From positions 1 through 42,694 of the IMG/VR virus record IMGVR_UViG_3300035698_005380: a DNA stretch of 42,694 nt, one strand, 5' to 3'. The notes beneath the pieces were generated by a model, which saw nothing but the letters and a program-made list of their open reading frames with translations, made no database searches and was not told where the DNA came from. The position numbers were made by a program, and so were the translations under genes. Source of the stretch: a virus. Of this stretch, positions 16,026 to 40,146 are shown one piece after another (the first letter of the stretch is position 1; every line of letters begins with the position of its first letter).

Positions 16026-16026
16026 A

Positions 16027-16317
16027 ATGAATGGTAAGTGGACGAAAGAAAATTTTGAAATACATGACAAAGCTCATCCTGAGATTTACATAAAGTTTTG
16101 CAAGTACGCAATGCAAGCTGCATTAGTGAAAGGCCGCTACTCGGCTAAGTGCATCTTCCACCGCGTACGATGGGACTCAATGATCATTGATCAGATGTCA
16201 GATTTTAAGGTAGATGATGGATGGATATCTCACTACGCAAGAAAGTTTATGAGCGAAAACCCTAGCTTAAAGAATTTCTTTGGGCTTAGAAATCGAAGAA
16301 GTACCTACCACTCTTGA
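16027..16317 (+). CDS. Conserved-type phage hypothetical protein (96 aa)
   Basis: The ATG at 16027 has GAGGAA about seven bases upstream and follows the nuclease stop at once, so it is preferred to an in-frame TTG at 16003. The sequence is basic and aromatic, with the pattern AHPEIYIKFCKYA, a Lys-Gly-Arg-Tyr-Ser turn and a later VRWDSMI. This pattern recalls a small uncharacterised protein often found in phage replication regions. No catalytic motif is visible. Confidence 0.65.
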   Translation: MNGKWTKENFEIHDKAHPEIYIKFCKYAMQAALVKGRYSAKCIFHRVRWDSMIIDQMSDFKVDDGWISHYARKFMSENPSLKNFFGLRNRRSTYHS

Positions 16318-16327
16318 GGATTAAATT

Positions 16328-16579
16328 ATGAATAACATGAAAATAACAATGCTGGTTTTACCTGTAATACTTTATTTCGGATTCGCATTTACTGCCAACG
16401 CAGGAGTTCGCTGTTCGACCGATTACTTTGGTAATCAAACATGCTACGGAACAGGTAACGATAGTGGTTATCGGAGCCAAGGCAGTACGGATTACTTCGG
16501 TAATCAAACATGGACTGACAATAAAGGTAATCGTACTAGATGCACCACGGATTATTTTGGTAACACTAACTGTAATTAA
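16328..16579 (+). CDS. Secreted protein with three TDYFGN repeats (83 aa)
   Basis: Residues 1-25 are a signal peptide: a short basic start, a hydrophobic core, and a cleavage site after Ala-Asn-Ala. The mature part holds TDYFGN at 31-36, 54-59 and 74-79, with cysteines at 29, 39, 72 and 82 that could form two disulfides in the periplasm. The repeats are also visible in the DNA. GAGGA lies about eight bases before the ATG. The protein is not needed for replication; as an exported protein it could alter the cell surface or block superinfection. That is inference; similar repeat proteins exist in bacterial genomes, so acquisition from a host is possible. Confidence 0.65.
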   Translation: MNNMKITMLVLPVILYFGFAFTANAGVRCSTDYFGNQTCYGTGNDSGYRSQGSTDYFGNQTWTDNKGNRTRCTTDYFGNTNCN

Positions 16580-16754
16580 TTTTATGGGCTTATCGCCCAC
16601 AAAAACTGGAGCTGGCCCAGATGCCGATCTGATATTGGATCGTAATAAGCGAAGACCTGTGTTGGAAAGCGATTCATGCCGTAATTTTCAGAAATAACAC
16701 AGGCACTAATTTAACAAGCGATTAAGTAGCGGCGTTAGTTTGAGAGATAGTGAT

Positions 16755-16931
16755 ATGAGTAGTGTATACATAGTAGTTAAGCATGACAGTCTATGCGATA
16801 AAATAATAAAAGTTTTTGAAGATAAAGCATCGGCAGTAAATTACTCTGCGCTGTGCAACAACACATCAAGTAGCATTGATAATGAGTTCTTCATTGTTGA
16901 AAAGCATTTGCTGATGAAGATCAAGTCGTGA
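16755..16931 (+). CDS. Small hypothetical protein (58 aa), possibly DUF7336-like
   Basis: The ATG at 16755 is preferred to an in-frame TTG at 16740 because a GAGAGA sequence lies before it. The start SSVYIVVKHDS followed by VFEDKASAVNYS recalls small phage proteins that begin VYIV-H and continue with a helix beginning at S/D-x-x-A. The resemblance is weak. The stop overlaps the next start (GTGA). The 175 bases before it hold a 37-codon ORF without a ribosome binding site and a short TGGGC/GCCCA hairpin (16585-16599), nothing firmer. Confidence 0.5.
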   Translation: MSSVYIVVKHDSLCDKIIKVFEDKASAVNYSALCNNTSSSIDNEFFIVEKHLLMKIKS

Positions 16932-17215
16932 GGGGGGTTAAGTGGCAGGACATACCTGCTGATTTTAAGTACCCATTATGCAAGGTTTGTGGGAAGCCAA
17001 CCCCTGTGTTTTCAAAAGAAGGTAAGCGGATACCGCACTGCAAACGGCTCACTGCAAAGACCTGCGGCGACCCGTATTGTCGTGGCGTGATGATCGGTAG
17101 GCCAAAGATCAGGGGGAAGTACAAGCCTAAGACTGTTGCACCAGTTGTTATTACTGATTTAGATATTGCTTTTCAATCATTTAACTTTAAAGGCTCTAGC
17201 ATTAAGATAAATTAA
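16928..17215 (+). CDS. Small cysteine-rich, probably zinc-binding protein (95 aa)
   Basis: The start is GTG at 16928, overlapping the previous stop (GTGA); no in-frame ATG fits better. C18-x-x-C21 (LCKVCGKPT) and a second group of cysteines (CKRLTAKTCGDPYCRG) would hold one zinc ion, like the zinc knuckles of small phage DNA-binding or HNH-associated proteins. The last 40 residues are basic and then hydrophobic. It is the last gene of the rightward cassette. Function unknown. Confidence 0.6.
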   Translation: MRGVKWQDIPADFKYPLCKVCGKPTPVFSKEGKRIPHCKRLTAKTCGDPYCRGVMIGRPKIRGKYKPKTVAPVVITDLDIAFQSFNFKGSSIKIN

Positions 17216-17229
17216 TAGATCGGGTTAGC

Positions 17230-17264
17230 ACCCTAGCTAGGGTACAAGTCACCTTAGCTAGGGT
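17230..17264. repeat. Two tandem copies of a 14-bp palindrome between convergent genes
   Basis: ACCCTAGCTAGGGT (17230-17243) is a perfect palindrome, and ACCTTAGCTAGGGT (17251-17264) is a one-mismatch copy 21 bases on. They fill the gap between the last rightward gene and the end of the leftward late operon. Neither is followed by a U-tract, so they are not standard terminators. A protein-binding site or a processing signal is possible. Confidence 0.6.
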
Positions 17265-17274
17265 ATACATTAAT

Positions 17275-20200
17275 CTACCAAGAACTACCCCAGCCACTAG
17301 ACCTTCGCTCAGTTTTCTCACCCGCAAAAAAATTCACACTCGCTTCTTTCACTGATTTTATACCGCCGAGTACAGGCAACCTACCAATTATTTCTCTGGT
17401 TGCTAGCCTCTCTTTAGAGTTTGTACCAGTAGTACCTTTGTCCCAGACATCCAGTGCAGCTTCTTTCGCACCGCCCATAACATTTACAACACTTGCACCA
17501 AGCCCGAAGGTTGGGCCAAGGATTGTTCCTGCGGCACGTTGTACGCCGTACGCTCCATTGTCTGCTTGAGAAGCTACGTCATGCATCATATCCCCGATTA
17601 AACCGAACCCACCAGCAGCGGTAAGACCCTCAAAGTACCAACCAAGGAAGGTATCTAAATCGCCATGTACGTCTGCGTTGTAACCAAGAAGCTCTCCATA
17701 CTTACCAGCGCTGCGCTCTCGGAACTCTGCGCTCTCACCATCTTCGCCACCACGCTGTTGCACCAAGTCTTTCGTGCCTATTGCTGCCATACCTAATGCA
17801 GGAGCAAAGGTTGCGAAATAAAGAGGCCGCTTAAAGTTGCCTGATTTGACATCATCAAGCAGTACATCCTTTGCCATACGACCCATGAGTAATGGAAAAG
17901 ACTTGAGCTGGAAAAGTATCGATCCGGCTGGTGTCTGGTACGCAAGGGGTATATCGTCAGGGTTAGGAGAAAAAATAGTGTCGTTCGCAAACTTAATCAT
18001 ACCTAACGCAACCACATCGTCAGCAGGGTCTAGCTTTTTAGTGGGGTCTTTTAGCCACTCTGACATGCCATATCGATTCAAGTATCTGTATGCAAACTTG
18101 TACTCGCGACTCTGATCTTTTTCAGTTAATGATGGATCGTAACTCTTAGCTGCCTTAGTGACCTGCGTATTAAAGGACTCAAGTGCTACTGCACCAGCCA
18201 AGCCTCTCCACATATCAGTCCAAGGTGTCAGCATCGTCGCGTTAAAGAATGCGTTCTGTGCAACACCAACTCCACCAGTTGCGTCGGCTCCATACATACC
18301 TACCATTCTTGAATGCAGCGCATTCTCTATAGCTACGCCCGTGTTCTTAATCTCTGATCGGTAGTCAGGGTCAGCCGCGTACTTACTAATACCTTTCATC
18401 CATGACCGGAATGATCCAGACCGGATCAACGGTAATACAGCGTCGGGTATAGAGGTTAGAACGGTAAAGGATAGCAGTGATATATTATTAATCGCACGTA
18501 CATTACGAGAAGCATTTATAAACTTCTGGCTCTCACGAGGATTAACTTGTTTACCTTGTAGTGTACGTATCGTTCCTTCTGCGTGATCAAATTCACTACG
18601 GTTAATCGCTGTTGGCCTACCATCTTCGGCTAGCTTGAAGTCGCTCATCGCATTGGCGATCGCATCCACTCGGCGGTCGTACGTCTTAGTACGTTTGTCT
18701 TCTGGTAACAGGTTGAGCATGAAGTCTTTCGCGGCAATCTTGCCGTGTTTTAGGTACTGGTCAAGGGCTTCCATCGCAAAAGGTCTAGCCTGTTCTTCGG
18801 ATTGAAACGGCATCTCCATTACTTTTTCCATTGAGGCGGAACTTGTGACACCAGTAATAGGGTCTTGTCCCTTAATTTCCTTAGTGAATATGCGAGGCGT
18901 TGATAGCTGCCGGACAACTGCATCGATACCTGACTCACCTATATCCATGTAATCTGCGTATGCGTGTACGTTCAAACCAATATTCTTAGTCTGATGTATC
19001 CGTTTTGACGCACCATCCATGTACTTAACCAGAAGACCATCGAGATTATTTTCCATAAATGGCTCAAACAAATCATACAGCTCAGGAGTTTTATCAATAC
19101 GCAACAACCGCTGATAGTCCAGATGCCCTTCAACACCGCCCTTGTTAGATACAGGTGGTGGTATGTAGAGGCCATCGTCATTCAATAGGTTGTTAGTGAT
19201 GCGACCTGCAATCTGACTAGCTTCTTCTGTCGAGCGACTAGAGTTTTCTGTTTTAAGGTACATGGTTAATGCTCGCGTGAAGGCATCCATATCCTTACCG
19301 ATGCTCTCTATATTCCATACTTGCGGCATATAGTTCTCGATATCACCAACCATAACTTCATTATCAATCATCTCAGTGTGCAGACTTTTCATCGTGCCTT
19401 TGATTTTATTAAATAATGTTTTTTCTGGTGCGGTAAGCGCTGAATATGCTCGGCTTGCATTACCTCTACGCAGGGCTTTTAGTACATTTTTATGTGACTC
19501 TGGTTGACCACGACTTGCTTTGTTAAATGGGTTTGATGATTTCACCCATTCTTTCACAACGCCATCACGGTCAGGTAGCTCGTTCATTAGCTGTTTGATA
19601 GGCATGTAGGCGCGAGCAAACTTGTTGTAGACGGATGGGTAATAGTTCTCTACGTAATTTGCAAGCCAGTTCATACCTGTCTTACGCATACGCTGAGAGT
19701 TCTTTGAGAGCAATCTCTCTGCTACTGACGCTTCGCGTATACCTTTAATATCCTCATCGTTTAGTGCGCGACCCTTGGCTATCTTACGTAATCCACTAGT
19801 TACTTCTGGTGCTGTGCCTTTTGTTTCGGCGTTATCAAGCATGGTAGCAATACTCGCACTGTCGCCACCCTCACCCCTTAACGCAGAGAGCGCAGTTGTG
19901 AGTGACGCAGGTTGAGACATACTATCCGAGTAGTACAAGCGAGTATCTTTTTCGTCAAAGTATTGAGCATCTTGTGATTTAATATTGAAAGCTGCGCTGC
20001 GCCAATTATCATTGGCGTCTAGTGTTTCGATTAGTGTGTAAGACTCATGCGGAATCCGATCACCCGTTAGAGTGTTCTGGTGCGTTGAGTGTATGGCGTC
20101 GTAACCTAACTGACCAAAAAACTCCGTGTACCTCTGTTGGGCTGCCTTCTTACTACCAACTACTTTCTGGAGTGCTTTAACAGACATCATGTAAAGCTCG

Positions 20201-23200
20201 TCTCCCGATAGCGACCCTGACTCAGTTAGTTGCTTGTTCATTGGTGCGTACGCCTGTCTAATCTGCTCCATCTCTTTACCTTCAGAGAGCATTTCTAACA
20301 TCCCGAATCTCATCATTGACTGAAGAGTGGTGTCTTCCATTTTGTACATCGAGGTACGTCTTAGGTCGATGGGGTTATTAACCCTCGCATATACTGTCAA
20401 GACACCAGCGTTATAATCTATGTCTAAGTTCTTTAACACGGTATGGAAACTCTGCTCGTTGTACTCTAACAACTCTATTTCAGAATCCAGCCTTTCGAGT
20501 TTTAATTGGTTATCGATACTCGATATATCACCTACGTCAGAGTAATCACCACGCCCATTAATTAAATCTTGTCGATCTACTTTCTTGTTTGATATTTGTG
20601 AACGAAGTGAGCTAGCCCTTTTTGCATTATCCAAAGCCTCGATCTTCTGATCAGCATCGAGATTAGGGCTGCCTTCAATCATTCGCGTCCATGAAGCCAT
20701 CGTTGGTTTCTTCGCGTAGACCTCATCTGCTATGACAGGGTTGGTAGTTATGTAAATTCCAGCGCCAAAGTTACCCGATTGAGATGGCTGGAACACAACC
20801 TCCCTATCTTCCAATGGGTTTAGATTAGGTGTGCCGTGGTACAGTCTAATTGGTGTGCCGTCAGGCCCGATCAACCCGCCATTAATGTAGTCATGGATTC
20901 TCGATTTCTTGTTGTTACTAGATGATGCGTACATATCTTGGAAATGCTGCGCTGCCATGCTTGCTGGCACAGGGCCACGGTTTCGTATGGGCATCTTGGT
21001 AGATTTTCTAGGCTGCACCATGTCGCCGTAAACCGTTAAACGACGGAAGACTTGTTTGATATCTTTGCGTCCAATAACCCCATTAAGTAAGTAAGCCGCA
21101 CCCTCAATAAAGGTATCGAGCTTTGACTCAACCGAGCTTCTTAGATTTAAAGACTCAGGTGTTCCACTATCTCTCGCGGAGAAGACATCTCCTTTTGATG
21201 TGCGTTCAGCTAGGTATTGCGACCAATGCTCAACAAACCATTCTTCTGACTGCCTCTCTAGTCTGTCGTGTACTGGCAGCTCATCATACTTTCTTCGAGA
21301 TACGTTCTTCTTAATGTCATCGTTTGACTCGATAAACGCATTCATTATCTCGCCTCTATCCTTGTCAGTGATCATGTTAGTACGCATGAGAACATGCCCA
21401 ACTTCATGCATCAGGTCGAATGGATCGCTGTTACCCTTGTTAAGCCCAACCGTCATGCGACGAAGATCGTTGCGAAGGTTCTTAAACTCAGGACTAGTGA
21501 AGTCTGCCATTACGCCAGTGATTCCTGCTGACGCACTACCTCGACCACTAAGACGCATTACATCATCCATTGATAATATGTTTGCATCTTCCATTGTTGC
21601 CTTAGCTGATCGACCCATTAGGTTGAACATTCGGTATGCCATTGTGCGTAGGTCATGCTGCACTTCTGGGTTGCGATGAACAAAATACCCCATTGCTTCA
21701 CGTATACCAAACCGCGCATTGGCGGGTATACCGTCAGCCGCGCCACCCTCATAGTCAATCGCTTCTATCTTAGACGCTAATCCTATTGCTTGGGTCTTGA
21801 TAGGCATAATAGCTTGAATCTTAGGCCCGACAACTGCCACTTTATTCAGCTCACCAGCTCTCTTAATAGTTCGGTCTATCGCTTTATTATAAGATCGTCG
21901 CTGAGTTTCCCATATAATGCGTGTCACTTCTTCTGTATTACCCGACTCAAAAGCGTCGGTAAGCATGGTTTCCAACTCATCTATTTTTGCAGCTTGAATT
22001 CGCTTAGAGTGTTCTAACGATGCGGCACGAGGCTTGCCTACTGGCTCAGTCGTTAGCTTCTCTTTACGTAGTAACTCTGTAAGAATCTGCGACCCTTCTT
22101 TCGTTCCCTCGAACCCTTTGTAAACATCCGCGAGTTGTCTGATTGTAAGGCCATTAAGGTCTGGTAAAGGTTTGCCAGAGCGCTCAAGTTTTCCAAGTTT
22201 TCCAGCAGCAAATTGCGCTGCCCTTGCTTTAAGAATGTTTTCAAGTTTGTCAGTACCATCCGCTATCCTTTCTTTTTTGTTACGCTCTCGTGCTTGATTG
22301 TATTTTGCTTTTGGAGGCAAGGGTTCAACTGCATGTACGCCTTTTCGGAATGATTCAGGCATAGACCCTACGTAGTCATCAAGAGCCTCGCTGGTAGGAA
22401 TACCGTACCGCACAAACTCTTCCTCTAGTAATTGTTTGCTACGTTTTAGTATCTGAGAGAGTGATCCGTTGTCAGATTGTGGATCAAATATTTCCACCCT
22501 TAACTCTTGGATTATTTCATCCAGTGATGAATCAGGGTCAGTTAAATTGAAGAATGAGTATCCATTTTCAAAGTCGTTGTAGTCAAAAGCAACACTGTCA
22601 TTACCATCACCACCCTCATAGTCGCTATCCACGTACGAATATTCGTCGTACCCTTCCTCGGCTAAGTCACTATCACGGTGCGGGTTAGCTACAATATTGT
22701 CGTTGAACACTTGGTCGGCATCAGCCACATTACCAAGCATCTTTATACGCAGCTTGTCAGCCTTGCCTCGTATTTGCTTGCGTATCTTTCGAGTGGCCTT
22801 TAGTGCGCCTGTAGATACCCGTCCTTCCTTAGCTGCTCTAAACCTAGATGGAACAAGCTGATACAAATGAACAACCACTTCACCTACCGCGTTAATAATT
22901 CTGGTTGGGTCTTCTGTTAGTAGAGCATCGTGTAGGTTCTTATCAACTTCATCCGTCATCTGCCAACGGAACTTCATCATCTCGCCGTATGGTAGTAATG
23001 GCGCTGGGTTGCGTACCTTTGGGTTCTTGGCAGAGAACTTAATCTTCTCGTCGCCTAGCAATATCTTTGCAAACAAAGGCTCAAGGTCTTTATCAAGCAG
23101 CTTCTTGTTAGTAGCTCGATTAAAAAATTCCTCAACGTACTTTACTAGTCTTTTATACAAGGCTTCATTGCCCATGTTGTACTTGCCATTGCTAGCAAGG

Positions 23201-25965
23201 TACGCTTCAAACTGGTTGGCAAAAAATTCTTGAGGTGAGTCAGCATCGTTGGCTTTCCCACTCCTGATCAACCGAAACTTCACTGATTCTTCTGCAAACT
23301 TTCCATCAATATCATAATATTTTGATACAGTATCCCAGAACTCAAAACGATCTTCTGATGTTAGTATGTTTTGATAAGCCCAATGAGCAATCTCGTGCGC
23401 CATCGTTGTTGCTGGCGTGTATGCACCCTCTTCGTTAGATATTTTTTGCGTTATCCTTATCTGATTTTGACTGGATTTATCGTCACCACTTAGGACATCG
23501 TAGTAATTCCCACCACCTCGGCTAATGCTTGGCGCAGCGCTCCCAGTCAAATCTTTGATAAGCTGGACAGTGGCAGATTGTTCTTCGTCAGTATATTTAG
23601 CAAGAATATCTCTCGCGTTCTGCATAGACGTTTCTTTGTCTACGTTGTTGAATCGCTCGACACCATTGGGCGCTATCTTAGCCAACTCTTCATTCGCGAC
23701 TTTTAATGCATCGACTATTTGAAAAAACCCGTCTTTGTCTTTAGGCCAATGAACATTATCTAATGCAATTATATGACGGTATAGTCCTTGAGCGTTTGAA
23801 ATACCATCACGTACTCCCTCCTCTATTATTCCTTTCGCTGCCCCTAAATAAAGTGAACTCGGCAGGGGCATGTCTATTATTCTTTGACTAACATCACGAG
23901 AGATAGCAACTGATTTAAGCTGATCTTCAGGGAAAGCTCGCTTCGATTCGTTAGGTACAAGGTCTTGTGCTGACGCAGGAGCCTCATCGAATGGGATGAT
24001 CATGTCTGGTGCGTGGCGACCACCTTTGCCACCGATCAGGGACATGTCTACCCGACCAAAAATCCAGTCTTCTATCGGCTTCTTGCCGAGGATGACACTA
24101 GGCTTATTGATACCAGCATCAAGTTGTTTCTGTGAAATAACTTTGTAATCGTGAGTACCGTCAGCGTTAGGCTTCTTGCTCATAATAGCTGCGAGTTGGC
24201 CTTCTGGAATTTCTGCGCTCTCATCAATCTGGCGTAGTTGTTCAGCCCTGCTCATTGCCTCTGGTGTACCATCACCAACTTCTCTTTGGTGATCCCGTAT
24301 GATTCGTAGATTTTCCATCATACGTTCACGTAAGTTTTCTATATTTGTTGGGCTGGCTGGTTCAGCTTTTAATTCCTTATTTGCCTTTCCTTTGAGCGTA
24401 GACTTCTTTTCTTCAAGTGCGTCTGGTGACGGCGCTGCTGCACGTTCTGCTGGTGTAGGTGTAACCATTTCTCCACGAGCCATGCGAAGAGTCGGTTCAT
24501 CCCTATAGAATTTCTGAGTAATAGGGTCGTAGTAGGCTATCTCACCCTTCTTAATTACTGTGCTGTACTTAATAAACTCGCCATTCTTTACTATCTTTGT
24601 TCCACCATTGTACTGCTTTTCAGCTTGCCACTTAACAGGCTCACGACCCTCTACGTACTTGATTGACTTGCCATCCTCAACTCGTCGTGGCGCGTGTGCA
24701 ATCGCTTTAGCTATATCAAGACCAATGACGGGTTCACCATTAATCTCACTAATCATCTTAGAGACCGTCTGGTTCTTCTCGTTTGGAGTGGCTTGCCTAC
24801 CTGATAGTTTTGGGTCAACCCAATCACCATAAGTAGTGCTAGGTACTCGCGCTACAGGATTATTATTAAGCTCATCAGTCACTCGTTGAGTCGGTGATGG
24901 TCGCTCATCTGTGTTCTCATCAACCTCCTTTAATTTTTCTTTCTTGTTGGATTCAGCAATCCTAGCCTTAGCTTTGTGCTGCATAAATGAGAGAGCCGCC
25001 TTGCGGTTGGCTTCATTTTGACTAAGACCCTTACCTTTATAAAAGTCACTTAGCTTACGTACCACGATCTTATCAGACTCAGAAAGGCTCTCTGTAATCG
25101 TATGGTAAACGGATTTTATTTGTGTATTAAGATCACCTGATTGGTCTGATGATCCTGACACATCATCCAAAACACCCATTAAGTAATCTACGTTTGCTGC
25201 GTAGTCGGCCATCTCTTGCTCAGTTGGATCAACTATCTTGTCATACGCTTCTTTTTCGCTATTGAATACATCCAATACGTCTTGCTGAGACATCTCGACG
25301 GATGCGGCTTTGGGTGTTTGCGACGAAATTATTTCATCCAGTATTTTTGATGCGTCTGCGAATTCTTTTACAGCAGACTCTATTTCTTTGAGGCCAACGC
25401 GACCATCACCATCAGGGGTGATCATCCCAGCCAACAACTCGATATCAATATCATTATCTGTGGCTGCTTGTTCAAGCTGCTTTCTAGCTCGTTGCTTAAA
25501 CTTCATGCCGCCCAGCATTTTTTCAGGAGACTCAGGTGTTGACGCACTACCGATTGGGTCGGCTGATGATGTTCCTGAAGTTACTATGGGGGCTTCTGGT
25601 GTGGGCTGCGTACCGACTTGTCCGGTAGGTGCTTCGACTTGTCCAGTAGGGGTTGGATTAAACTTCTGCATGTAGTCTTCGTACGTAGGAACGAATCCTT
25701 GCTTGCCAGCTATCTTTGCTTCGAGGTCTTTGTACTGCTTACCTAATCCGTTTGCCAGCTCATCGACTGCACTGAGTCTAGCCTTGATGTTAAGTTTTCC
25801 TGAGAGTTTCTTTGCCTCAACTGGATCATCAGATCGAAATTCCAATCCGAAGGTAGGGTCTTTAGCTATTTGCTTCGACCGTTTTGAGAGAGTTTTTAGA
25901 TCAAGATCATCGTCTTGTAAATGAAGAGCTGCACAATCAGTTATAGTGCCTATAGTTTTAGCCAT
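17275..25965 (-). CDS. Giant polyvalent virion protein: two HExxH motifs, ADP-ribosyltransferase signature (2896 aa)
   Basis: Recognisable parts in order are: H857-E-I-A-H861 (a zinc-metallopeptidase motif), H1520-E-V-G-H1524 (a second one), and an ADP-ribosyltransferase-like region with YHGT at 1709-1712, GAGIYIT with Y1738, and GYDAI and HESYTLIE with E1974 as the likely H-Y-E triad. The last 300 residues alternate hydrophobic and Gly/Ala-rich stretches, as in proteins that cross or pore the membrane during ejection. This combination fits the large polyvalent proteins of podoviruses, packaged and injected to act on host targets early. It is the last gene of the late operon; AGGTGA lies before the ATG. 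No single-subunit RNA polymerase motifs are seen, so it is not an N4-type virion RNA polymerase. Individual activities are unproven. Confidence 0.8.
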   Translation of the reverse strand: MAKTIGTITDCAALHLQDDDLDLKTLSKRSKQIAKDPTFGLEFRSDDPVEAKKLSGKLNIKARLSAVDELANGLGKQYKDLEAKIAGKQGFVPTYEDYMQKFNPTPTGQVEAPTGQVGTQPTPEAPIVTSGTSSADPIGSASTPESPEKMLGGMKFKQRARKQLEQAATDNDIDIELLAGMITPDGDGRVGLKEIESAVKEFADASKILDEIISSQTPKAASVEMSQQDVLDVFNSEKEAYDKIVDPTEQEMADYAANVDYLMGVLDDVSGSSDQSGDLNTQIKSVYHTITESLSESDKIVVRKLSDFYKGKGLSQNEANRKAALSFMQHKAKARIAESNKKEKLKEVDENTDERPSPTQRVTDELNNNPVARVPSTTYGDWVDPKLSGRQATPNEKNQTVSKMISEINGEPVIGLDIAKAIAHAPRRVEDGKSIKYVEGREPVKWQAEKQYNGGTKIVKNGEFIKYSTVIKKGEIAYYDPITQKFYRDEPTLRMARGEMVTPTPAERAAAPSPDALEEKKSTLKGKANKELKAEPASPTNIENLRERMMENLRIIRDHQREVGDGTPEAMSRAEQLRQIDESAEIPEGQLAAIMSKKPNADGTHDYKVISQKQLDAGINKPSVILGKKPIEDWIFGRVDMSLIGGKGGRHAPDMIIPFDEAPASAQDLVPNESKRAFPEDQLKSVAISRDVSQRIIDMPLPSSLYLGAAKGIIEEGVRDGISNAQGLYRHIIALDNVHWPKDKDGFFQIVDALKVANEELAKIAPNGVERFNNVDKETSMQNARDILAKYTDEEQSATVQLIKDLTGSAAPSISRGGGNYYDVLSGDDKSSQNQIRITQKISNEEGAYTPATTMAHEIAHWAYQNILTSEDRFEFWDTVSKYYDIDGKFAEESVKFRLIRSGKANDADSPQEFFANQFEAYLASNGKYNMGNEALYKRLVKYVEEFFNRATNKKLLDKDLEPLFAKILLGDEKIKFSAKNPKVRNPAPLLPYGEMMKFRWQMTDEVDKNLHDALLTEDPTRIINAVGEVVVHLYQLVPSRFRAAKEGRVSTGALKATRKIRKQIRGKADKLRIKMLGNVADADQVFNDNIVANPHRDSDLAEEGYDEYSYVDSDYEGGDGNDSVAFDYNDFENGYSFFNLTDPDSSLDEIIQELRVEIFDPQSDNGSLSQILKRSKQLLEEEFVRYGIPTSEALDDYVGSMPESFRKGVHAVEPLPPKAKYNQARERNKKERIADGTDKLENILKARAAQFAAGKLGKLERSGKPLPDLNGLTIRQLADVYKGFEGTKEGSQILTELLRKEKLTTEPVGKPRAASLEHSKRIQAAKIDELETMLTDAFESGNTEEVTRIIWETQRRSYNKAIDRTIKRAGELNKVAVVGPKIQAIMPIKTQAIGLASKIEAIDYEGGAADGIPANARFGIREAMGYFVHRNPEVQHDLRTMAYRMFNLMGRSAKATMEDANILSMDDVMRLSGRGSASAGITGVMADFTSPEFKNLRNDLRRMTVGLNKGNSDPFDLMHEVGHVLMRTNMITDKDRGEIMNAFIESNDDIKKNVSRRKYDELPVHDRLERQSEEWFVEHWSQYLAERTSKGDVFSARDSGTPESLNLRSSVESKLDTFIEGAAYLLNGVIGRKDIKQVFRRLTVYGDMVQPRKSTKMPIRNRGPVPASMAAQHFQDMYASSSNNKKSRIHDYINGGLIGPDGTPIRLYHGTPNLNPLEDREVVFQPSQSGNFGAGIYITTNPVIADEVYAKKPTMASWTRMIEGSPNLDADQKIEALDNAKRASSLRSQISNKKVDRQDLINGRGDYSDVGDISSIDNQLKLERLDSEIELLEYNEQSFHTVLKNLDIDYNAGVLTVYARVNNPIDLRRTSMYKMEDTTLQSMMRFGMLEMLSEGKEMEQIRQAYAPMNKQLTESGSLSGDELYMMSVKALQKVVGSKKAAQQRYTEFFGQLGYDAIHSTHQNTLTGDRIPHESYTLIETLDANDNWRSAAFNIKSQDAQYFDEKDTRLYYSDSMSQPASLTTALSALRGEGGDSASIATMLDNAETKGTAPEVTSGLRKIAKGRALNDEDIKGIREASVAERLLSKNSQRMRKTGMNWLANYVENYYPSVYNKFARAYMPIKQLMNELPDRDGVVKEWVKSSNPFNKASRGQPESHKNVLKALRRGNASRAYSALTAPEKTLFNKIKGTMKSLHTEMIDNEVMVGDIENYMPQVWNIESIGKDMDAFTRALTMYLKTENSSRSTEEASQIAGRITNNLLNDDGLYIPPPVSNKGGVEGHLDYQRLLRIDKTPELYDLFEPFMENNLDGLLVKYMDGASKRIHQTKNIGLNVHAYADYMDIGESGIDAVVRQLSTPRIFTKEIKGQDPITGVTSSASMEKVMEMPFQSEEQARPFAMEALDQYLKHGKIAAKDFMLNLLPEDKRTKTYDRRVDAIANAMSDFKLAEDGRPTAINRSEFDHAEGTIRTLQGKQVNPRESQKFINASRNVRAINNISLLSFTVLTSIPDAVLPLIRSGSFRSWMKGISKYAADPDYRSEIKNTGVAIENALHSRMVGMYGADATGGVGVAQNAFFNATMLTPWTDMWRGLAGAVALESFNTQVTKAAKSYDPSLTEKDQSREYKFAYRYLNRYGMSEWLKDPTKKLDPADDVVALGMIKFANDTIFSPNPDDIPLAYQTPAGSILFQLKSFPLLMGRMAKDVLLDDVKSGNFKRPLYFATFAPALGMAAIGTKDLVQQRGGEDGESAEFRERSAGKYGELLGYNADVHGDLDTFLGWYFEGLTAAGGFGLIGDMMHDVASQADNGAYGVQRAAGTILGPTFGLGASVVNVMGGAKEAALDVWDKGTTGTNSKERLATREIIGRLPVLGGIKSVKEASVNFFAGEKTERRSSGWGSSW

Positions 25966-31028: not shown

Positions 31029-32531
31029 CTACCAGTAGCCGCCTCGTTTTGTCGGGCCTGATGTACCACCAAACCTACCGTATGGAGAGCTTGGCGCTGA
31101 TGGCCTTGAGTCCATCCACGACCCAAACTGTGACCCAGCATCCATCAGCATCCTAGTGCTATTTGACGCTGCTTCTCCTGCACCTTGGACTAAGCTATCA
31201 AAGTTACTAGCGTATCCATTGCCACCCATTGCGTTAGATAATAGAGTTCCCCCCGAAGAATAGCTTGGTTGAGTTGGGTTAAAGCTACCAGTAGCGCCTG
31301 ACATTTGACCGCCAGCTAATGAGCTATTTAATCTCATAGTGTTAGCCATCGCGGGGGTATAATTACGTTGTTGCATTACGTTGGAGTTGATGTTGAGTGG
31401 CGCTCTGAAATCTCCTGCTGACGATCTTACGCTTCCACCATTGTTTCCTGTGCCAAGGCTAGCCCAGCCATTTGTTTGCGCTGTGACAGGGTTTCGCATG
31501 TCCCGCATAACCTGCAATAGACCTTCCTTACCTCTGATTTTTTCTTCGATAGCGGCAGCACGAGATGATACATCTGCATTGAACGCGCTGATTTCATTGT
31601 TCTGTAAATTACTTACGTAGCCCATGCCGTCTTGTCTGGCTTGGTTACGGGCGTTGTTGTACAGGGGTGTTAGTTGCTCTTGAAGTAGACGACGACGAGA
31701 GCTGTCGCCTGTTGTTGAATTATCAACACCTCTTCTGATTAGGTCTGCTTCGTTAACGGATGAGAGTCTATCGGCTGCACGATCAGCGTCTTCAAGATAG
31801 CCTGTATAGAATTCATTTGTGAACTCATTTACATCATCTTCGCCATAACGCTTAACTCGCTCAAGGTCTCCAAACGAATAAATTGTGTCGTCAATCTCTC
31901 TCGATAAAGTGTTGGCTTGACCAAGTATTTTTGATTGCCGATCAATTTCAAATTGACGCTCTTTGTCAGCCATGCCCATCTGAACTTCATAGTCGTTGAC
32001 GCGCTTTTGGTACTCAAGCTCGCTACGCATTTGATCTTCTTCAAAACGCTTAACGTCGTAGTCTCTCTCACCTACGGCGATCTGACGTACGTACTCAAGC
32101 TCATCTAGTGCAAGCTGTCGTTCTTTTGCGGTTGTCGATTCATCTCTCGCAAACTGCTCAAGCTCGCGAGCGCGTTCTTCTGCTGCTAATGAGTCGGCTT
32201 TATTGACTCTATACTTTTCGTAGTCTTGCTCCTGCTGGCGAAAGTTCTGGTCTTTTTGAACAAAGTCACGCGAGTAGTTCATATACTCTTGGGCTGCCAA
32301 CTCGTTCTTTCTGTTGTAGCCCATCATGTAATCAAACATCTCGTCCTCTCGATCAAAGCCTTGCTCTGCCCTTTGATACGAACGCTCTCGATACTTGTTG
32401 TCTATTAGGGCTTGCTCTCGCTTGAAAGCTAGCTCCTCCATAGCCATACTTTCCTGACCTCTAGCGCCTTTCGCAGACTGCATACTGCCGTAAAGCGAAA
32501 GGCCAGCACTTATTGCTGCTCCCCATCCCAT
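31029..32531 (-). CDS. Coiled-coil internal virion protein, T7 gp14-like layout (500 aa)
   Basis: The protein opens with a small hydrophobic segment (MGWGAAISAGLSLYGSMQSA), as gp14-type ejection proteins do. A very long Glu/Arg/Gln-rich coiled coil follows (about 25-330), and then a Ser/Gly/Asn-rich end finishing RGGYW. AGGAG lies about six bases before the ATG. No enzyme motif. It is the first of the three probable internal virion genes after the tail genes. The call rests on shape and gene order, not on a clear family match. Confidence 0.6.
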   Translation of the reverse strand: MGWGAAISAGLSLYGSMQSAKGARGQESMAMEELAFKREQALIDNKYRERSYQRAEQGFDREDEMFDYMMGYNRKNELAAQEYMNYSRDFVQKDQNFRQQEQDYEKYRVNKADSLAAEERARELEQFARDESTTAKERQLALDELEYVRQIAVGERDYDVKRFEEDQMRSELEYQKRVNDYEVQMGMADKERQFEIDRQSKILGQANTLSREIDDTIYSFGDLERVKRYGEDDVNEFTNEFYTGYLEDADRAADRLSSVNEADLIRRGVDNSTTGDSSRRRLLQEQLTPLYNNARNQARQDGMGYVSNLQNNEISAFNADVSSRAAAIEEKIRGKEGLLQVMRDMRNPVTAQTNGWASLGTGNNGGSVRSSAGDFRAPLNINSNVMQQRNYTPAMANTMRLNSSLAGGQMSGATGSFNPTQPSYSSGGTLLSNAMGGNGYASNFDSLVQGAGEAASNSTRMLMDAGSQFGSWMDSRPSAPSSPYGRFGGTSGPTKRGGYW

Positions 32532-32540
32532 AACAATCTC

Positions 32541-35093
32541 CTATGCGTATTGAGCGCCGTATTGATTTTGATATTGTTGAGCAAGACCCTTATCTTTTTC
32601 ACCAACCTTACTAATCAATAATGCAAATTCTTCTGGCGACAAATCACCTGAACTAAATAGGCGGTTTATATAATCATTATCAACCCCCATATCACCTACG
32701 TTTTGAGCTTCTGCTGCGTTACGTGCAGCAACAGATTCAGCCGAACTCGATATACGGTCTGTCTGGCCCTGTAAGTAGTTTTGAATCCCAGCCATCTCAT
32801 CTCTTGCTTGAGTTGCGCCGTAAAGCTCTTGCTCTGTATTTAGCTCGTTGTAAGGGTCATACGCAGAATCTACACTTGCTTGATTGTAAAACTGCATATC
32901 GCCAAGCTGATCAAGATACTCTTGCGACCTAGTTTCTATGCCGCCACGATAGTCAGACAGGTCATCAAGCCTGCCGCCCATTGCGTCACTGGAGGTGGTT
33001 AGGTAGTTTCGTACGTCATCGAGGCCGTTACCGGAGTATCGTGACAGCGCCGTTCCTTGAGCGTTCATACCATCGATCGTTTCATTTATGCCACCTTCGT
33101 TGTAGAGTTCCATTCCTTGACCAGAAGCCAGTAGTCTTTCAAGTTCGGATTGGATGTCATTTATACCTGCGGCTCGATCACCTTGAAGACCTGTGAGCTG
33201 GTCTCGACTAAGCCCAATACTTGCCAATATAGAAGCGAAATCTGGGGTCAACTCTGAACGAAAAGACTCAACATTATTTCTGGCGTCGTTTATTCGTCCG
33301 TCGTATCGAGACATAGCACCACCATCGTAGATACTGGCCTCGTCTAATCCGCTTTGGATTCCACGTACGTCTGAACTGAATATACGCTTGTAATCATCAA
33401 TCCTATCAAGCTCATCATTTCGATCATCCCGAAGACCATCTACACGATCATCTAGCCCAGAGAATCGACGCAAGTAATCATCCTGCTGATTATCATCGTT
33501 TATCTTGTTATCGAACCCACGAAGCTGCTGAACTAACGCGCCGATGTCAGTATCAAACGACTCTATTTGATCACCGTTAGCTATTCCCATGTCGTCAAAC
33601 TCAATCTCTCTGTCGAGATAATTGTCGTTCATTGATTTATAGAAACTTTCTAGGGCGTCATTTTCTGCGTCATACAATTCTTGGTCTGTAGCTAACTGAC
33701 CTTCGATACCATCGAGAGATGTTCCGTACCCCGACAGGGTATCGTTAAATGAGTTAAGCTCTGAGTCATACCGATTTAAGTTGTCACGCATGTTGTATGC
33801 GTCATCACTAAATCTATCGAGGACTCCTTCGCCATAAATGTCTGCGCGTCCAAAGTTCCGGTCGTAGCTAGTAAGGCCGCTATCAAACTCACGAGAAAAT
33901 GCATCGTTACGAAATAACTCTGCGTCGTAAAGGTTTTGATTAGTGTCGCGTTGACCTTGGACAAGGCCGTACAGATCGCGCATTTCTCCTGAGTCCGTTA
34001 GCTTTGTTGCACCAGTATTAAAGCCACTCAAATCTACAGCATTACCAAAAGCGTCTTTAATAGTCCCTCTGATATCTGGAGTTTCTGTTTGGAATACAGT
34101 GCTTATGTCTTTGTAGTTTGGCCCATCATATTGAAAGTTTTCAAAACCATTCAGATCAATACCATCCAGTTGATCGTACGTGCCTCTGAGTTGGTCGGTG
34201 TATGCCCCAATGTTAGTGTTAAAGGCATTAACTTTATCGTTGTATGCGCTCAAGTCTCCAAGCTGAGAATCAAGCCGCCCACCAACAACCCTTCTGTTTG
34301 ATATTCCATCGTCAAATAATTTTTTACTGGAGTTAAAGCTATTCTGATCTCGTGCGTTGATCATTCCGCTGTAAGCACCATCAACATTGTAGGTGTTAGT
34401 TAAGAACTGATTCACACTGTCATTGGTTGAGGCGTAAGGCGTGTATTGAAAGCCTCCACTGCCGTATGGGTTTTTCCAAGGTGGTACGCGAGGATTGCCG
34501 TCGCCCGGTTTATTGTGGACTAGGAAATCATCTGCGAAATAAGTGTTGTTGCCACCTAGTCGGAAGTTATAGACAGTTTGTTCGTCTGCGCCGTAGCCAA
34601 CTATAGCCTCTACTTCTAAAGGCTTGTTGCCAATACGTGTAATCTTATCGCCTAACTCAAGCTGCTCCGCGTCAAGACCTGCGTGTTCTGTGTTCGTAAT
34701 TTCTGGTTCGATTGACTTCCACTTATCGTCTACGCGAAATGGATGCTCAGAAGTTACGAATGGTACTGAGTCATTAATTCGGTATAGCTTCCGACCCGCT
34801 AAGGGGGGTTGCTCAAGTTTAATTACTGGGTTCTTTTTACCATCTTCACCTAGAAGCTCATCACCCACTTTAATATTTTCAATTAAATCGTAAGAGCCAT
34901 CGCCACGGATTACTTTAGTGCCTCCTATAAAACAGCATCCTCTTTGACCTTGTGTGCTGCGACCACCACGGCCATAACCACCGGGGCCGCGACCACCGGG
35001 GCCGACATTACCGCCACCGCCGCCGTTACTGCTAGTACCACCACTTCTTCCACCGCCGCCGCTACTGCTAGTACCATCACCTCTTCCGTCCAT
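32541..35093 (-). CDS. Virion protein with an N-terminal Hint (intein/hedgehog-type) domain (850 aa)
   Basis: Residues 1-52 are Gly/Ser-rich and contain a 12-residue repeat. Residues 53-194 are a Hint domain: CCFIGGTKV (C53/C54), IENIKVGDELLG, TSEHPF with T114 and H117, and the closing TYFADDFLVHN with H193 and N194. The residue after N194 is Lys, not Cys, Ser or Thr, so normal protein splicing is not expected; cleavage at one or both Hint ends is. The remaining 655 residues are Asp/Asn/Tyr/Gly-rich with repeating helical units and look structural. It lies between the tail fibre and the internal virion proteins, so it is probably a virion component processed by its own Hint domain. GAGG precedes the ATG by nine bases. 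Confidence 0.8.
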   Translation of the reverse strand: MDGRGDGTSSSGGGGRSGGTSSNGGGGGNVGPGGRGPGGYGRGGRSTQGQRGCCFIGGTKVIRGDGSYDLIENIKVGDELLGEDGKKNPVIKLEQPPLAGRKLYRINDSVPFVTSEHPFRVDDKWKSIEPEITNTEHAGLDAEQLELGDKITRIGNKPLEVEAIVGYGADEQTVYNFRLGGNNTYFADDFLVHNKPGDGNPRVPPWKNPYGSGGFQYTPYASTNDSVNQFLTNTYNVDGAYSGMINARDQNSFNSSKKLFDDGISNRRVVGGRLDSQLGDLSAYNDKVNAFNTNIGAYTDQLRGTYDQLDGIDLNGFENFQYDGPNYKDISTVFQTETPDIRGTIKDAFGNAVDLSGFNTGATKLTDSGEMRDLYGLVQGQRDTNQNLYDAELFRNDAFSREFDSGLTSYDRNFGRADIYGEGVLDRFSDDAYNMRDNLNRYDSELNSFNDTLSGYGTSLDGIEGQLATDQELYDAENDALESFYKSMNDNYLDREIEFDDMGIANGDQIESFDTDIGALVQQLRGFDNKINDDNQQDDYLRRFSGLDDRVDGLRDDRNDELDRIDDYKRIFSSDVRGIQSGLDEASIYDGGAMSRYDGRINDARNNVESFRSELTPDFASILASIGLSRDQLTGLQGDRAAGINDIQSELERLLASGQGMELYNEGGINETIDGMNAQGTALSRYSGNGLDDVRNYLTTSSDAMGGRLDDLSDYRGGIETRSQEYLDQLGDMQFYNQASVDSAYDPYNELNTEQELYGATQARDEMAGIQNYLQGQTDRISSSAESVAARNAAEAQNVGDMGVDNDYINRLFSSGDLSPEEFALLISKVGEKDKGLAQQYQNQYGAQYA
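35017..35088 (-). repeat. 36-bp tandem direct repeat at the 5' end of the Hint gene
   Basis: Copies at 35017-35052 and 35053-35088 are near identical and encode two 12-residue units of the form G-T-S-S-S/N-G-G-G-G. The repeat builds the flexible Gly/Ser lead in front of the Hint domain and could vary in copy number by slippage. Confidence 0.7.
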
Positions 35094-35140: not shown

Positions 35141-36697
35141 CTACTGTGACTTAATCTGCGACACGATTGATATGTCGAGGTTGGTTGCGTTTGTAGCATT
35201 AGTGACTGTGTAGCCAATTAACTTGGAAGCTGATGTACCGACAACTTCGACAGGCGAAGCGAACACGGTTACAACTTCGGCTGTTGTGCTGAGTGCGATA
35301 GCTGAGTCTTGTACTACGCCACCAACCGTTAGCTGTACGGTGCATGAGCCAGCGTCGATACGCATTGCTACTTTAGTTAGCGTGACTGAGTGACCGAAGA
35401 CTCGTTTAATTGGTGCGGCTGTTACGTTGACTACGGTAGGGGTATATGAAAAATAACTATCGTAAGCAATGATTTCTGGTAGTTGAGCCACAGGTAGTTT
35501 TGCAGCGGTATCGAGAGATGCTACTCCGTTGATCGCGGCCTTAGTTGAGACAGGAATCAGGGAAGAAAAATCGATAGCAGCGAAACTTAATGCGGTTCCA
35601 GTTGCATCTACTTTCAAGTATTGCAAAGCAGAATTAGAATCAAACGTAGGGATAGAGGACGCAGGGTTAGCGCTTATATAATTAACGCCATCGTAGAACT
35701 TTAACTGGTTTGGGTTAGTAGATGTGTCAAGCCAAAGTCGAGTGGCAGGACTAGGTGTTGATGCGCTAATTCCAATACTAGGTGTTGCGGCTAGCGTAGT
35801 TGCTAGGCCGTCCACTTTTGATGTAGGGATTTGATTATCTGTAAGAACTAATTTTGTATATGGGATGTAGCCATTAATATCAGTATACGTGGCCTCAGTC
35901 ATTAAGCCTGTCACAACCCTTGAATCTACGGGGCCAGTACCGATAATAGAAACATCATTAGCTGTTGGAACTGACAAGTTAAAGATAATTAAGTTATTAA
36001 TCTCGTCCAGTACATAATCATTTGCACCACCAGCCCTCTGGAGTATCCCATTTTTGTAAACTTGAATTGCGTCTGTAGAATCGAACACAAAGCTAAAGTT
36101 TGCCTGTGCGCCAATTGTTGTTATATCTGTCCTTCTAAAGTCATAGCCACTACCCGATTCAATTTTGAAGACTGTTACGTTATCCCCAGAAGAAAGCGCT
36201 ACATTAAAAGTAATGCTGCCTGTTGATGCAGTACCGTCAGTGCTATCTTTTGTGTAGTCTGCGCCTGATCCTTCAGCAAGAAGCAATCCGTCTTTATAGA
36301 CCATTAACATACTTGTTGTGTCATGCGGAATATCTATCTCTGTTACAGCGCCAGTAGCGGTGTATAGAAATCTTGAGTTGAAAATTGGCTCGCCAATTAA
36401 CCCATAATCAATCCCTGTAGCGCCGCGTATGTCTGCGACAGGAACTACGATTGTCCAACCTTCTTCTGTATCAGTGTATGTGCCGGATCGGTATTGAATA
36501 CCAGATGAAGCGTCGAGGCGTAATTGTACTTTCGCATCGAACGTACCAGTAGAATCAAAACACAAAGCCATTAATTCAGAGATAGTTTTGTTACCATATT
36601 CCGCCGCATTTAAGTATCGAACTACGTTTTCAAATTCAGCGTTTACGTTGCCTGATGAAGTGTAGTTCTGAGAGTTGTTCTGACGTAATCTGCTCAT
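35141..36697 (-). CDS. Tail fibre / receptor-binding appendage protein (518 aa)
   Basis: The sequence is beta-rich, Thr/Ser/Val/Asp-rich and nearly free of cysteine, as phage fibres are. Two similar units of the form VYKDGLLL...DYT (about residues 131-150) and VYKNGILQ...DYV (about 211-230) are repeats seen in tail appendages. A middle segment (ATRLWLDTSTNPNQLKFYDG) is a common fibre motif. The N-terminal 60 residues would attach to the tail. It follows the tail-stabilisation protein by one base. The C-terminal 120 residues probably face the host receptor. Confidence 0.7.
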   Translation of the reverse strand: MSRLRQNNSQNYTSSGNVNAEFENVVRYLNAAEYGNKTISELMALCFDSTGTFDAKVQLRLDASSGIQYRSGTYTDTEEGWTIVVPVADIRGATGIDYGLIGEPIFNSRFLYTATGAVTEIDIPHDTTSMLMVYKDGLLLAEGSGADYTKDSTDGTASTGSITFNVALSSGDNVTVFKIESGSGYDFRRTDITTIGAQANFSFVFDSTDAIQVYKNGILQRAGGANDYVLDEINNLIIFNLSVPTANDVSIIGTGPVDSRVVTGLMTEATYTDINGYIPYTKLVLTDNQIPTSKVDGLATTLAATPSIGISASTPSPATRLWLDTSTNPNQLKFYDGVNYISANPASSIPTFDSNSALQYLKVDATGTALSFAAIDFSSLIPVSTKAAINGVASLDTAAKLPVAQLPEIIAYDSYFSYTPTVVNVTAAPIKRVFGHSVTLTKVAMRIDAGSCTVQLTVGGVVQDSAIALSTTAEVVTVFASPVEVVGTSASKLIGYTVTNATNATNLDISIVSQIKSQ

Positions 36698-36698
36698 T

Positions 36699-38210
36699 CT
36701 ATTTTCTCACGTTGAATCCGATGGCACTTACACGCACCAGACCTTTGCCTTGGGAAGTCAGCTTCACTCGAAGGCCACGGTAAATGGCTTCAAACTTGCG
36801 GTCGTACTGACGATTAATTGGGTTATTAGGAAAAGAACCATCACTGTCATCTTCAATCTCAAGAGGAAAAGCGGATAGCAATTGATCTTTCTCGTTGAAA
36901 ATCTCTACAAGAATGTCACCCTTACCGGATGCATGAATGAAGAATGAGTGAGTTGATTTATCTTGAGTCATCGATCCATGCCAAAGGATAGGCGTTTTAA
37001 TAGTCATCACGTTGTCAGCGAGATTCCTATTGCTATCCTCAACATCAAATACTTCATACACACCACCACGACAACCAAGGACGGTGCGATCTCCGATAGA
37101 GTCTCCACAGAAAGCGTTTAAGTAATCGCCCGTTGACCATCGGTTAGGGTTAGTCTCTGCTGATGTTAGCGTCAGCGTCAGCCTTTTTGAGATCGTAGAA
37201 GTAATTGGAAAAAAGACATGGTACTGAGAGGTTTCAGGCTCCCATACCGCGCTAATCGCTTCTTTGTTTTTGACCTGCTTTATTAAGGCTCGATACGTTA
37301 GATCGATGCTGGCTGATAGTACGTTTGCAAATACTAAAATACCGTTGTCTCGTGATCGTGCAATTGTGTGGATGCCACGCTCTGAACAGAATAAAAGGTC
37401 TGTTCCTGCTTGTTTGATTGTGTTGTGTGAGATGGTTCCAATATTAATGTTGGCGCGGCCATCAATAATCCATTGATCAATGTCTGGATCAATCGTATAG
37501 ATAATGCATTTGTTCCTAGTAAATATTGCAAGAGAGCGCTGTTCGAATGCGGAGATACCTTTAATCTCATCAGCAGTACCGATAAGGTTTCCGATATCTA
37601 TCTGACCTGCGCGTAGCACATTTTCATCAATTGATGATTCATCGTCAGGAAATACTGAACTTGAATCTACACGAGAAAGTTGGACTGCGGTTCTCTTACC
37701 GATAAGCCCTGCTACGCAAAGCCTACGCTGAACTGATGCAATGTATTTTGGTGACAATAAAGCAATAGAGCTGGATGTGTTTTTTGTGTACGTAAGTCCA
37801 TTGTAAGAATAAATAAACCCTGTCTGTGAGGTTAAGTGTACTTTGTCATTGAATACAGTAGAGCTAACGACTGAACCTGCGCTGTACGCATCATTGAGTT
37901 CGTGTTTTGCATCTGACTTGAGCGTTACTGAATCGCCATTGTCTACAGCGTAAACGACATTAGCGACATCTTCATTAGAGGTATAAAACCTAATGTGTGT
38001 AACCGGATAGGTTTCATCGATCGCTAATAATGCAGCAGGGTTACGTGTGATCTGGCCACGCCAATCACAATAAGCATTGTTACAAATATCTAGGCTTTGG
38101 GCGTCACTTCGATCTTGTGCGGTTACGTCTGCACTTGAATCAACTCCAATAAAGTTTGAGATTATCTGTGACTTTATTGATACGGCTGGGTTGGATCGTG
38201 TGCTAGCCAT
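36699..38210 (-). CDS. Tail stabilisation / tail tube-nozzle protein, P22 gp10-like (503 aa)
   Basis: A beta-rich protein with the layout of podovirus stabilisation or nozzle proteins: an N-terminal ...NNAYCDWRGQITRNPA stretch typical of the start, then propeller-like strands (SERGIHTIA, YHVFFPI, GCRGGVYEVFD). It overlaps the connector gene by one base and precedes the fibre, the order expected in a short-tailed phage. T7-type tail tubular protein B is the alternative name for the same position. There is no enzyme motif. Confidence 0.65.
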   Translation of the reverse strand: MASTRSNPAVSIKSQIISNFIGVDSSADVTAQDRSDAQSLDICNNAYCDWRGQITRNPAALLAIDETYPVTHIRFYTSNEDVANVVYAVDNGDSVTLKSDAKHELNDAYSAGSVVSSTVFNDKVHLTSQTGFIYSYNGLTYTKNTSSSIALLSPKYIASVQRRLCVAGLIGKRTAVQLSRVDSSSVFPDDESSIDENVLRAGQIDIGNLIGTADEIKGISAFEQRSLAIFTRNKCIIYTIDPDIDQWIIDGRANINIGTISHNTIKQAGTDLLFCSERGIHTIARSRDNGILVFANVLSASIDLTYRALIKQVKNKEAISAVWEPETSQYHVFFPITSTISKRLTLTLTSAETNPNRWSTGDYLNAFCGDSIGDRTVLGCRGGVYEVFDVEDSNRNLADNVMTIKTPILWHGSMTQDKSTHSFFIHASGKGDILVEIFNEKDQLLSAFPLEIEDDSDGSFPNNPINRQYDRKFEAIYRGLRVKLTSQGKGLVRVSAIGFNVRK

Positions 38211-38952: not shown

Positions 38953-40146
38953 TTAACCTAAAGTAGTCCAGCCTTTGATGTACTGATGTACTTTGTCTTG
39001 AGTTAATTCAAGACCACATTCAGTAAGGTACTCGTGCTTCTTGCGATCTTCACCATTACCTTGACGATCCATCAAGATTTGCGTATCGGACGAATCCAAA
39101 TAGCGGTACTTGAGGAATGGGAAGTCAAGAATGACAGCAGCGCTGTTCATTGCTGGTATTTGACGGAACTGTGGGTGAACGTGAACCAACAGGTCACCTG
39201 CGAAAGTCTGGTAGCGAACGAAGTTCACGCCGTATGATCCTTCTACTTGCGTAGGAGACCAACGGTTTTTACCAATGGCTTGCAGATGGCCAGCGATTTT
39301 AGCGCCACAGAAGAAGATTTTCTCTTTCGATCCGTATGCGAATACAGTCTCGATTAAGAAGTTATCAAATTCTTGTTCCGTCATGGTGCTTGCTACGGCA
39401 TTAATCTCTGACGCAGCTACGTTGTAAACACCAGTGATCTCGTTAGTCACGCCGCCAGTAAAGCGAGTGGGTGAAGAGGTAGTTGGATTTTCAACGTGCT
39501 TAACACCAAATAACATAGCTCGTTCAATGTCGCTCATGTGTAGCTTGAGCGCTTTTTCCATTGACTCTGTTTCCTTGTCGCCAGTACGAAGATGTGAATT
39601 CTTCAACGTACGTGAGACAGAGAACGCAGTACGGAAAATTTGCGTCACGTTATATGCTACGGTTGAGTCAAACGAGATAGGCTCAGGTGTATCCGCGCCT
39701 TCCGCTGCTGCAAAGCCAGCTACATAAAGTACGGCGTTATCAAGAATGGCGTGTGCTGTGCCACCGATGTTACGTTGTACTGATACAGTAGTTGCTGTTG
39801 CTGTAGTGGTTACATGCATAACCTCGCCAGTTGCGGAGTTGACTAAGATCGATCCTGCAATTGCAAACAAGTTTTCTGCGCTTGAGTCCAGAGTTAGCAC
39901 TTGTACAGTTCCAGCGGTGCTAACAATAGCGCCGTTGATCTGCATAACACGCTCAGGCAACTCGTCACGAAAGTTGTTGAATTTAGGATCATCAGATGAT
40001 TCGGAAGAAGTCATAGACAACAATGCGTTTAATGGTGCATCGCCGTTAGGTTCTAAAAGTGTGAACATCTCACGATAGTTCGTAGGTCTAAAGTCGGTAC
40101 TAAAAGTTCCAGTGCCGCGAAGACCTTGTATTCCTGATACAGGCAT
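38953..40146 (-). CDS. Major capsid protein, SU10/DUF5309 type (397 aa)
   Basis: The start (MPVSGIQGLRGTGTFSTDFR) and the order of segments, including NVTQIFRTAFSVSRTLKNSH, FFCGAKIAGHLQAIGKNRW and a C-terminal LLVHVHPQFRQIP then DSSDTQILMDRQGNG, match DUF5309-type (SU10-like) HK97-fold capsid proteins. Length is normal. GAGGAA lies about seven bases before the ATG. The gene sits between two strong terminators (40329-40357 and 38917-38945), so it is probably made from its own transcript as well as by read-through. The 182-base leader contains an imperfect stem (about 40185-40218). Confidence 0.85.
   Translation of the reverse strand: MPVSGIQGLRGTGTFSTDFRPTNYREMFTLLEPNGDAPLNALLSMTSSESSDDPKFNNFRDELPERVMQINGAIVSTAGTVQVLTLDSSAENLFAIAGSILVNSATGEVMHVTTTATATTVSVQRNIGGTAHAILDNAVLYVAGFAAAEGADTPEPISFDSTVAYNVTQIFRTAFSVSRTLKNSHLRTGDKETESMEKALKLHMSDIERAMLFGVKHVENPTTSSPTRFTGGVTNEITGVYNVAASEINAVASTMTEQEFDNFLIETVFAYGSKEKIFFCGAKIAGHLQAIGKNRWSPTQVEGSYGVNFVRYQTFAGDLLVHVHPQFRQIPAMNSAAVILDFPFLKYRYLDSSDTQILMDRQGNGEDRKKHEYLTECGLELTQDKVHQYIKGWTTLG

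Follow-up and report, generated by a model that had tools for sequence, protein, structure and literature searches.

A putatively self-processing A-type BIL Hint domain in a phage virion-region protein, and its relatives in tail proteins of uncultured phages

Judged by its residues and family features, the Hint domain near the N-terminus of the marine phage protein P0001 is a catalytically intact A-type BIL domain, and it probably removes itself after translation from the variable N-terminus of its helical, virion-region host, via a thioester at Cys54 and cyclisation of Asn194. An A-type BIL domain with lysine at the +1 position in such a protein, within a broad group of phage domains, appears to be undescribed; the preliminary description of this DNA had known of no report of a self-processing step of this kind in virion assembly, and in the open-access literature that we searched no paper describes a Hint or BIL domain in a virion protein. 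Known phage inteins are regarded as selfish elements and are housed in enzymes of replication and packaging, and the biological role of BIL domains is unsettled. The tail hub, tail assembly, tape-measure and fibre proteins that host the relatives of the P0001 domain offer a testable setting for BIL domains, and the sequences suggest that phages may use protein self-processing in the building of their particles. If this is true, autocatalytic processing would be part of virion maturation in many uncultured phages, and these domains would provide naturally occurring ligases that work without a +1 nucleophile.

Results

P0001 is an open reading frame of 850 residues (32541..35093, minus strand, as are all features of the window given here) within the window, by which we mean the whole analysed stretch of 42,694 nucleotides (IMG/VR record IMGVR_UViG_3300035698_005380). 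It begins with an ATG start codon, upstream of which lies AGAGG, and consists of a Gly-rich lead, the Hint domain and a helical repeat part. The lead (residues 1-53; 34935..35093) is rich in Gly, Ser and Arg, ends with Cys53, and has a GC content of 63% as compared to 43-46% in the rest of the reading frame, with GC3 unchanged. The Hint domain (residues 54-194; 34512..34934), which is supported by Pfam, PDB comparisons, an AF2 model searched with Foldseek, and its relatives, begins with Cys54, the Cys1 of the domain; this residue and the preceding Cys53 at -1 (34932..34937) are the only cysteines in all of P0001. Block B is formed by Thr114-x-x-His117 (TSEH; 34743..34754) and block G by His193-Asn194 (34512..34517), directly after which comes the +1 residue, Lys195 (34509..34511). 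Residues 195-277 (34263..34511) are a linker modeled at low confidence (AF2 pLDDT mostly <60), which would be the new N-terminal part if the protein were cleaved at the C-terminal end of the domain. The remainder (residues 278-850; 32544..34262) is predicted to consist entirely of long helical repeats and is common to gp39 of Roseobacter phage CRP-810 and its relatives. A fold search of this part against the PDB returned no significant match, an NCBIfam scan of P0001 returned no named family and a Pfam scan found no endonuclease domain. The domain had previously been drawn from Cys53 to Asn194, between a lead of 52 residues and a structural part of 655. Its end and the Gly-rich character of the lead hold up (25 of 53 residues are Gly), whereas alignment to the relatives places Cys1 at Cys54, which makes the lead 53 residues long, and 656 residues follow Asn194.

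Multiple lines of evidence identify the domain as a genuine Hint domain. It matches Pfam Hom_end_hint (PF05203) at E 8e-8 and 32.9 bits, above the curated cut-off of 32.1, which is the profile match that the preliminary description had called for. As a single sequence compared to PDB sequences, it matches PI-SceI (phmmer, E 4e-7) and aligns over its full length, at a weak E of 0.002, to the BIL domain 2lwy. A profile built from an alignment of 62 phage relatives matches Tetrahymena BIL2 at 1e-28 and 2lwy at 6e-27. The AlphaFold model is confident (pLDDT 87.9, pTM 0.84), and its best PDB folds by Foldseek are likewise BIL2 (E 8e-10, TM 0.77) followed by 2lwy (1e-7). The catalytic set is complete, comprising Cys54, Thr114/His117 and His193-Asn194. 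Across the 62 relatives, at 22-42% identity, Cys1, the block B Thr and His, Asp149 and the terminal His-Asn are kept, blocks B and G being nearly invariant, although the search pattern itself accounts for part of the His-Asn conservation. The phage Hint profile also matches residues 1082-1221 of PDB 8w20 chain A (1.6e-20), a solved protein of 1368 aa named "Intein C-terminal splicing domain-containing protein".

A-type BIL domains are known to end in His-Asn, to lack a +1 nucleophile and to occupy variable regions of non-conserved proteins (PMC4031507, PMC5874633, PMC7664689). The P0001 domain exhibits the Hint fold and blocks, an N-terminal Cys, TxxH and a C-terminal H193-N194; its +1 residue is Lys195 rather than Cys, Ser or Thr, as had been noticed before; and it lies in a variable region of a non-conserved protein, since the N-terminal modules differ between homologues. 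A true class 1 intein is ruled out by Lys195, and the site is not a conserved one in a conserved protein. A B-type BIL is similarly ruled out, because B-type domains lack the HN block. Pfam found no sterol-recognition region after the Hint domain of P0001, where the phage helical repeat is located instead.

The closest isolate to this phage is CRP-810, with which it shares the gene order capsid, gp42, gp41, (gp40), gp39, gp38. The major capsid protein (SU10_MCP, E 7.6e-36) lies at 38953..40146, the homologue of the gp42 "stabilization protein" at 36699..38210, the tail-fibre-like homologue of gp41, immediately upstream of P0001, at 35141..36697, and the homologue of gp38, immediately downstream, at 31029..32531. 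Residues 278-850 of P0001 are homologous to gp39, which occupies the same position. P0001 thus lies among the virion genes of a podovirus of the CRP-810 type, and from this synteny with CRP-810 we infer that it is a particle protein. The CRP-810 paper, which describes a diverse marine family, does not include gp39 among its identified structural genes (PMC11288001). Elsewhere in the window, a protein of 2896 aa (17275-25965) has a sub-threshold match to an ADP-ribosyltransferase domain (ART-PolyVal, E 2.7e-4).

The homologues compared were CRP-810 gp39, L009 (two tandem copies), L010, L007, L221-L224 and L226-L228, among which L226 and L227 are identical over the portion compared and L224 is truncated N-terminally. 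None of those checked contains a Hint domain, nor do the records that were searched whole, apart from one partial match elsewhere in the record of L226. Their N-termini consist of short Pro-rich leads or unrelated extensions. The two tandem copies in L009, a CRP-810-type relative (13488-15344 and 15350-17902), are diverged and differ in their N-terminal extensions. The absence of the domain from these homologues, together with their differing N-termini, indicates that the Hint was acquired at a variable N-terminal site of P0001. Searches of IMG/VR returned no relatives of the whole of P0001 or of the junction between Hint and body, and no second contig carrying this junction. Still, an assembly chimera is unlikely; the GC3 of the Hint equals that of the rest of the reading frame, and a single intact frame spans the junction.

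The P0001 domain had been presented as a single case of a Hint at the front of a virion-region protein. Its intact catalytic residues and its location in the virion-gene block stand, but it is not singular, as many environmental phages encode such domains. IMG/VR was scanned with a codon pattern for YFA...LVHNK and then with a nearly identical pattern lacking the K. The matches listed fall into two groups, one with weak matches to the Hint model and +1 Cys or Ser, and the other with strong, full-length matches. The former are ordinary inteins: 9 of 10 scanned hosts are helicases or terminases, and the tenth has only a LAGLIDADG match. Among the matches listed from the scan without K, the strong group comprises 21 clusters without a +1 nucleophile, where the +1 residue is K in 10, G in 4, A in 2, V in 2 and E, R and P in 1 each, as well as 3 more clusters with +1 C. 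Lys in 10 of 21 clusters against a background of 7% corresponds to p about 5e-7, although the HMM was built from domains with Lys at +1 and the enrichment may be overestimated. An artefact of the K-containing pattern was rejected as the source of the +1 Lys, given that without K it is still the commonest residue, though less dominant. Cys1, a position not selected by the search, is kept in 54 of 57 clusters among the matches listed from both scans.

In 4 clusters, again among the matches listed, the protein ends with the +1 Lys (VHNK*). That it is kept even there suggests that the Lys belongs to the domain rather than to the flank. Proteins of L020, L034, L085, L104, L114 and L127 end exactly at VHNK, with a C-terminal Hint, a single Lys and a stop. 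Tandem-Hint proteins are very frequent among the viral contigs found, such as those of L022 (2615-5341, minus strand), L137 (4241-6976, plus), L098 (8802-10574, plus) and L117 (5194-12708, minus), each with two to four Hint domains spaced by a few residues. In L068 (3005-3424, plus strand) and its cluster of 34, the last Hint of tandem arrays ends in Ser-Asp-Glu rather than His-Asn, and such copies are either degenerate or act differently. In the tree, the P0001 Hint falls with L019, L046, L099, L117 and L175 in a clade of 7 rows (SH-like 96), and support is shallow elsewhere; 2 of these five partners reside in recognised tail proteins.

Host proteins were judged by their flanks rather than by the Hint itself, and the assignments cover a minority of clusters. 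Among about 30 hosts scanned from the strong group, many of which have no recognisable flank, 8 are recognisable tail proteins: J-like tail hubs in L019 (Hint N-terminal), L045 and L183 (Hint in a Gly-rich loop), a lambda gpI-like tail assembly protein in L016, a tape measure in L198, a long tail fibre with an S74 chaperone in L053, a tail fibre in L154 and a minor tail protein in L099. Flanks of replication or packaging enzymes were found in 0 of these roughly 30 hosts. A search for a homologue of the L045 hub that lacks the insertion returned only the two loci of L045 itself.

Lambda gpI begins with a ubiquitin-like domain whose terminal glycine is conserved (PMC1779556), and in L016 (3495-4607, minus strand), L023, L058 and L120 the Hint immediately follows the corresponding N-terminal part of a gpI-like protein. 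The L016 junctions read VPVLQGAG|C...HN|KGLLGIILGAA, and a homologue without the insert, in L041, reads across the site (joined flanks 27% identical over 230 aa, E 4e-19). The gene upstream of the L016 protein encodes JAB and NlpC/P60 domains. Its gpI assignment is based upon PHROG matches and the L041 comparison, with Pfam Lambda_tail_I appearing below its cut-off and in L041 only. A search for gpI relatives in cellular genomes found two loci, both matched mainly via the Hint region. By analogy, the L016 arrangement is suggestive of a parallel to Tetrahymena BUBL1.

Discussion

Since all testable features of A-type BIL domains are present in the P0001 Hint, excision would be expected. The lead would be taken over by Cys54 as a thioester through an N-S acyl shift, assisted by His117, while Asn194 would cyclise and cut before Lys195, yielding a mature protein of 656 residues starting at Lys195. 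The thioester might then be hydrolysed, with loss of the lead, or be attacked by an amine, which would re-join the lead to Lys195 or to another amine. That the domain is active, the order of its reactions and what becomes of the lead are our extrapolation from characterized domains. The latter mainly cleave, but can also ligate, the N-terminal thioester then being attacked by the amine that Asn cyclisation releases (PMC4031507, PMC5874633, PMC7664689); a contrary review states that A-type domains cannot ligate (PMC7765530), hence the literature is not uniform. The earlier statement that joining of the flanks is not to be expected was nevertheless too strong, given ligation by aminolysis in A-type BILs (PMC4031507) and the isopeptide bonds made by Tetrahymena BIL2 (PMC8616854). 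Overall, the observation made in the preliminary description is confirmed, whereas its interpretation is partly supported.

Several considerations weigh against excision. Cleavage before Lys195 would discard or strand the Gly-rich lead, all homologues of P0001 lack the Hint, which implies that the protein works without it, and in proteins ending with VHNK such cleavage would free one Lys only and thus cannot be what the domain is for there. The domain could instead act as a ligase rather than a protease, with the lead passing as a thioester on Cys54 to a lysine, such that the Gly-rich arm becomes covalently attached as in BUBL1 BIL2; the acceptor could be Lys195 after C-terminal cleavage, the side chain of Lys195 or a lysine on a different virion protein. 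BIL2, the best profile and fold match, joins its ubiquitin-like flank to lysine side chains of substrates through isopeptide bonds (PMC8616854), the +1 Lys recurs in 10 of the 21 clusters listed and even as a last residue, and in the phage gpI-like proteins the Hint lies right behind a ubiquitin-like domain. However, the Lys enrichment was measured with an HMM made from Lys+1 domains, related BIL-like domains carry G, A, V, R, P or E at +1, and no crosslinks are known; we therefore regard this ligase role in P0001 as unlikely. It is also quite unlikely that the role extends to a widespread family of BIL domains in the virion (mostly tail) proteins of environmental tailed phages, in which a functional +1 Lys would make them ATP-independent, single-turnover ligases and a phage counterpart of BUBL1; as the tail is assembled, such ligases would couple lysine amines to an N-terminal flank, here the Gly-rich arm and in gpI-type proteins the ubiquitin-like domain.

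Retention of the Hint in mature P0001, as an inactive or purely structural or display domain at the tip of an arm, would accord with the frequent location of BIL-like phage Hints in Gly-rich, exposed linkers, and with a position near the far N-terminus that leaves the helical part undisturbed. Yet a structural domain has no need of Cys1, TxxH and HN, which are conserved among highly divergent relatives, making retention rather improbable. Even harder to credit is that the domain is a class 1 intein in decay following the loss of its +1 nucleophile. It belongs to the same fold family and has no endonuclease domain, but scattered decay would not give a large and diverse family without a +1 nucleophile and with another host range, and the homologues of P0001 exhibit variable N-termini only rather than an inteinless conserved site. 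This difference in hosts, with +1 Cys or Ser domains in helicases and terminases and those without a nucleophile in hub, gpI, tape-measure and fibre proteins, favors a self-removing A-type BIL as the most probable reading.

When compared to known systems, P0001 shares only some features with each. Class 1 inteins found in phage helicases and terminases agree with it in fold and in blocks A, B, F and G, but carry a +1 Cys or Ser and reside in enzymes, neither of which applies to the P0001 Hint. The Hedgehog Hog/Hint domain (1at0) is alike in fold (Foldseek E 7e-4) and in the expected N-S acyl shift chemistry, whereas P0001 has a C-terminal HN and no recognised sterol-recognition region. CRP-810 gp39 and its homologues correspond to the helical part and gene position of P0001, without a Hint in any checked. 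BUBL1 BIL2 (6y75, 6tmm) shares the NHNFFANGVLAH-type end and the Cys1/Asn architecture, but is eukaryotic with ubiquitin-like flanks, while the lead of P0001 is a Gly-rich stretch of 53 residues. The A-type BILs (C. thermocellum, PDB 2lwy) share the Hint fold, Cys1, TxxH, HN, the lack of both a +1 nucleophile and an endonuclease, and the location in a variable region of a non-conserved protein; P0001 is distinct in its low sequence identity, its phage virion-region host and its +1 Lys. In the C. thermocellum domain the +1 residue is reportedly Ala (Dassa 2004). In the A-type BIL of Magnetospirillum it is Tyr (PMC4031507).
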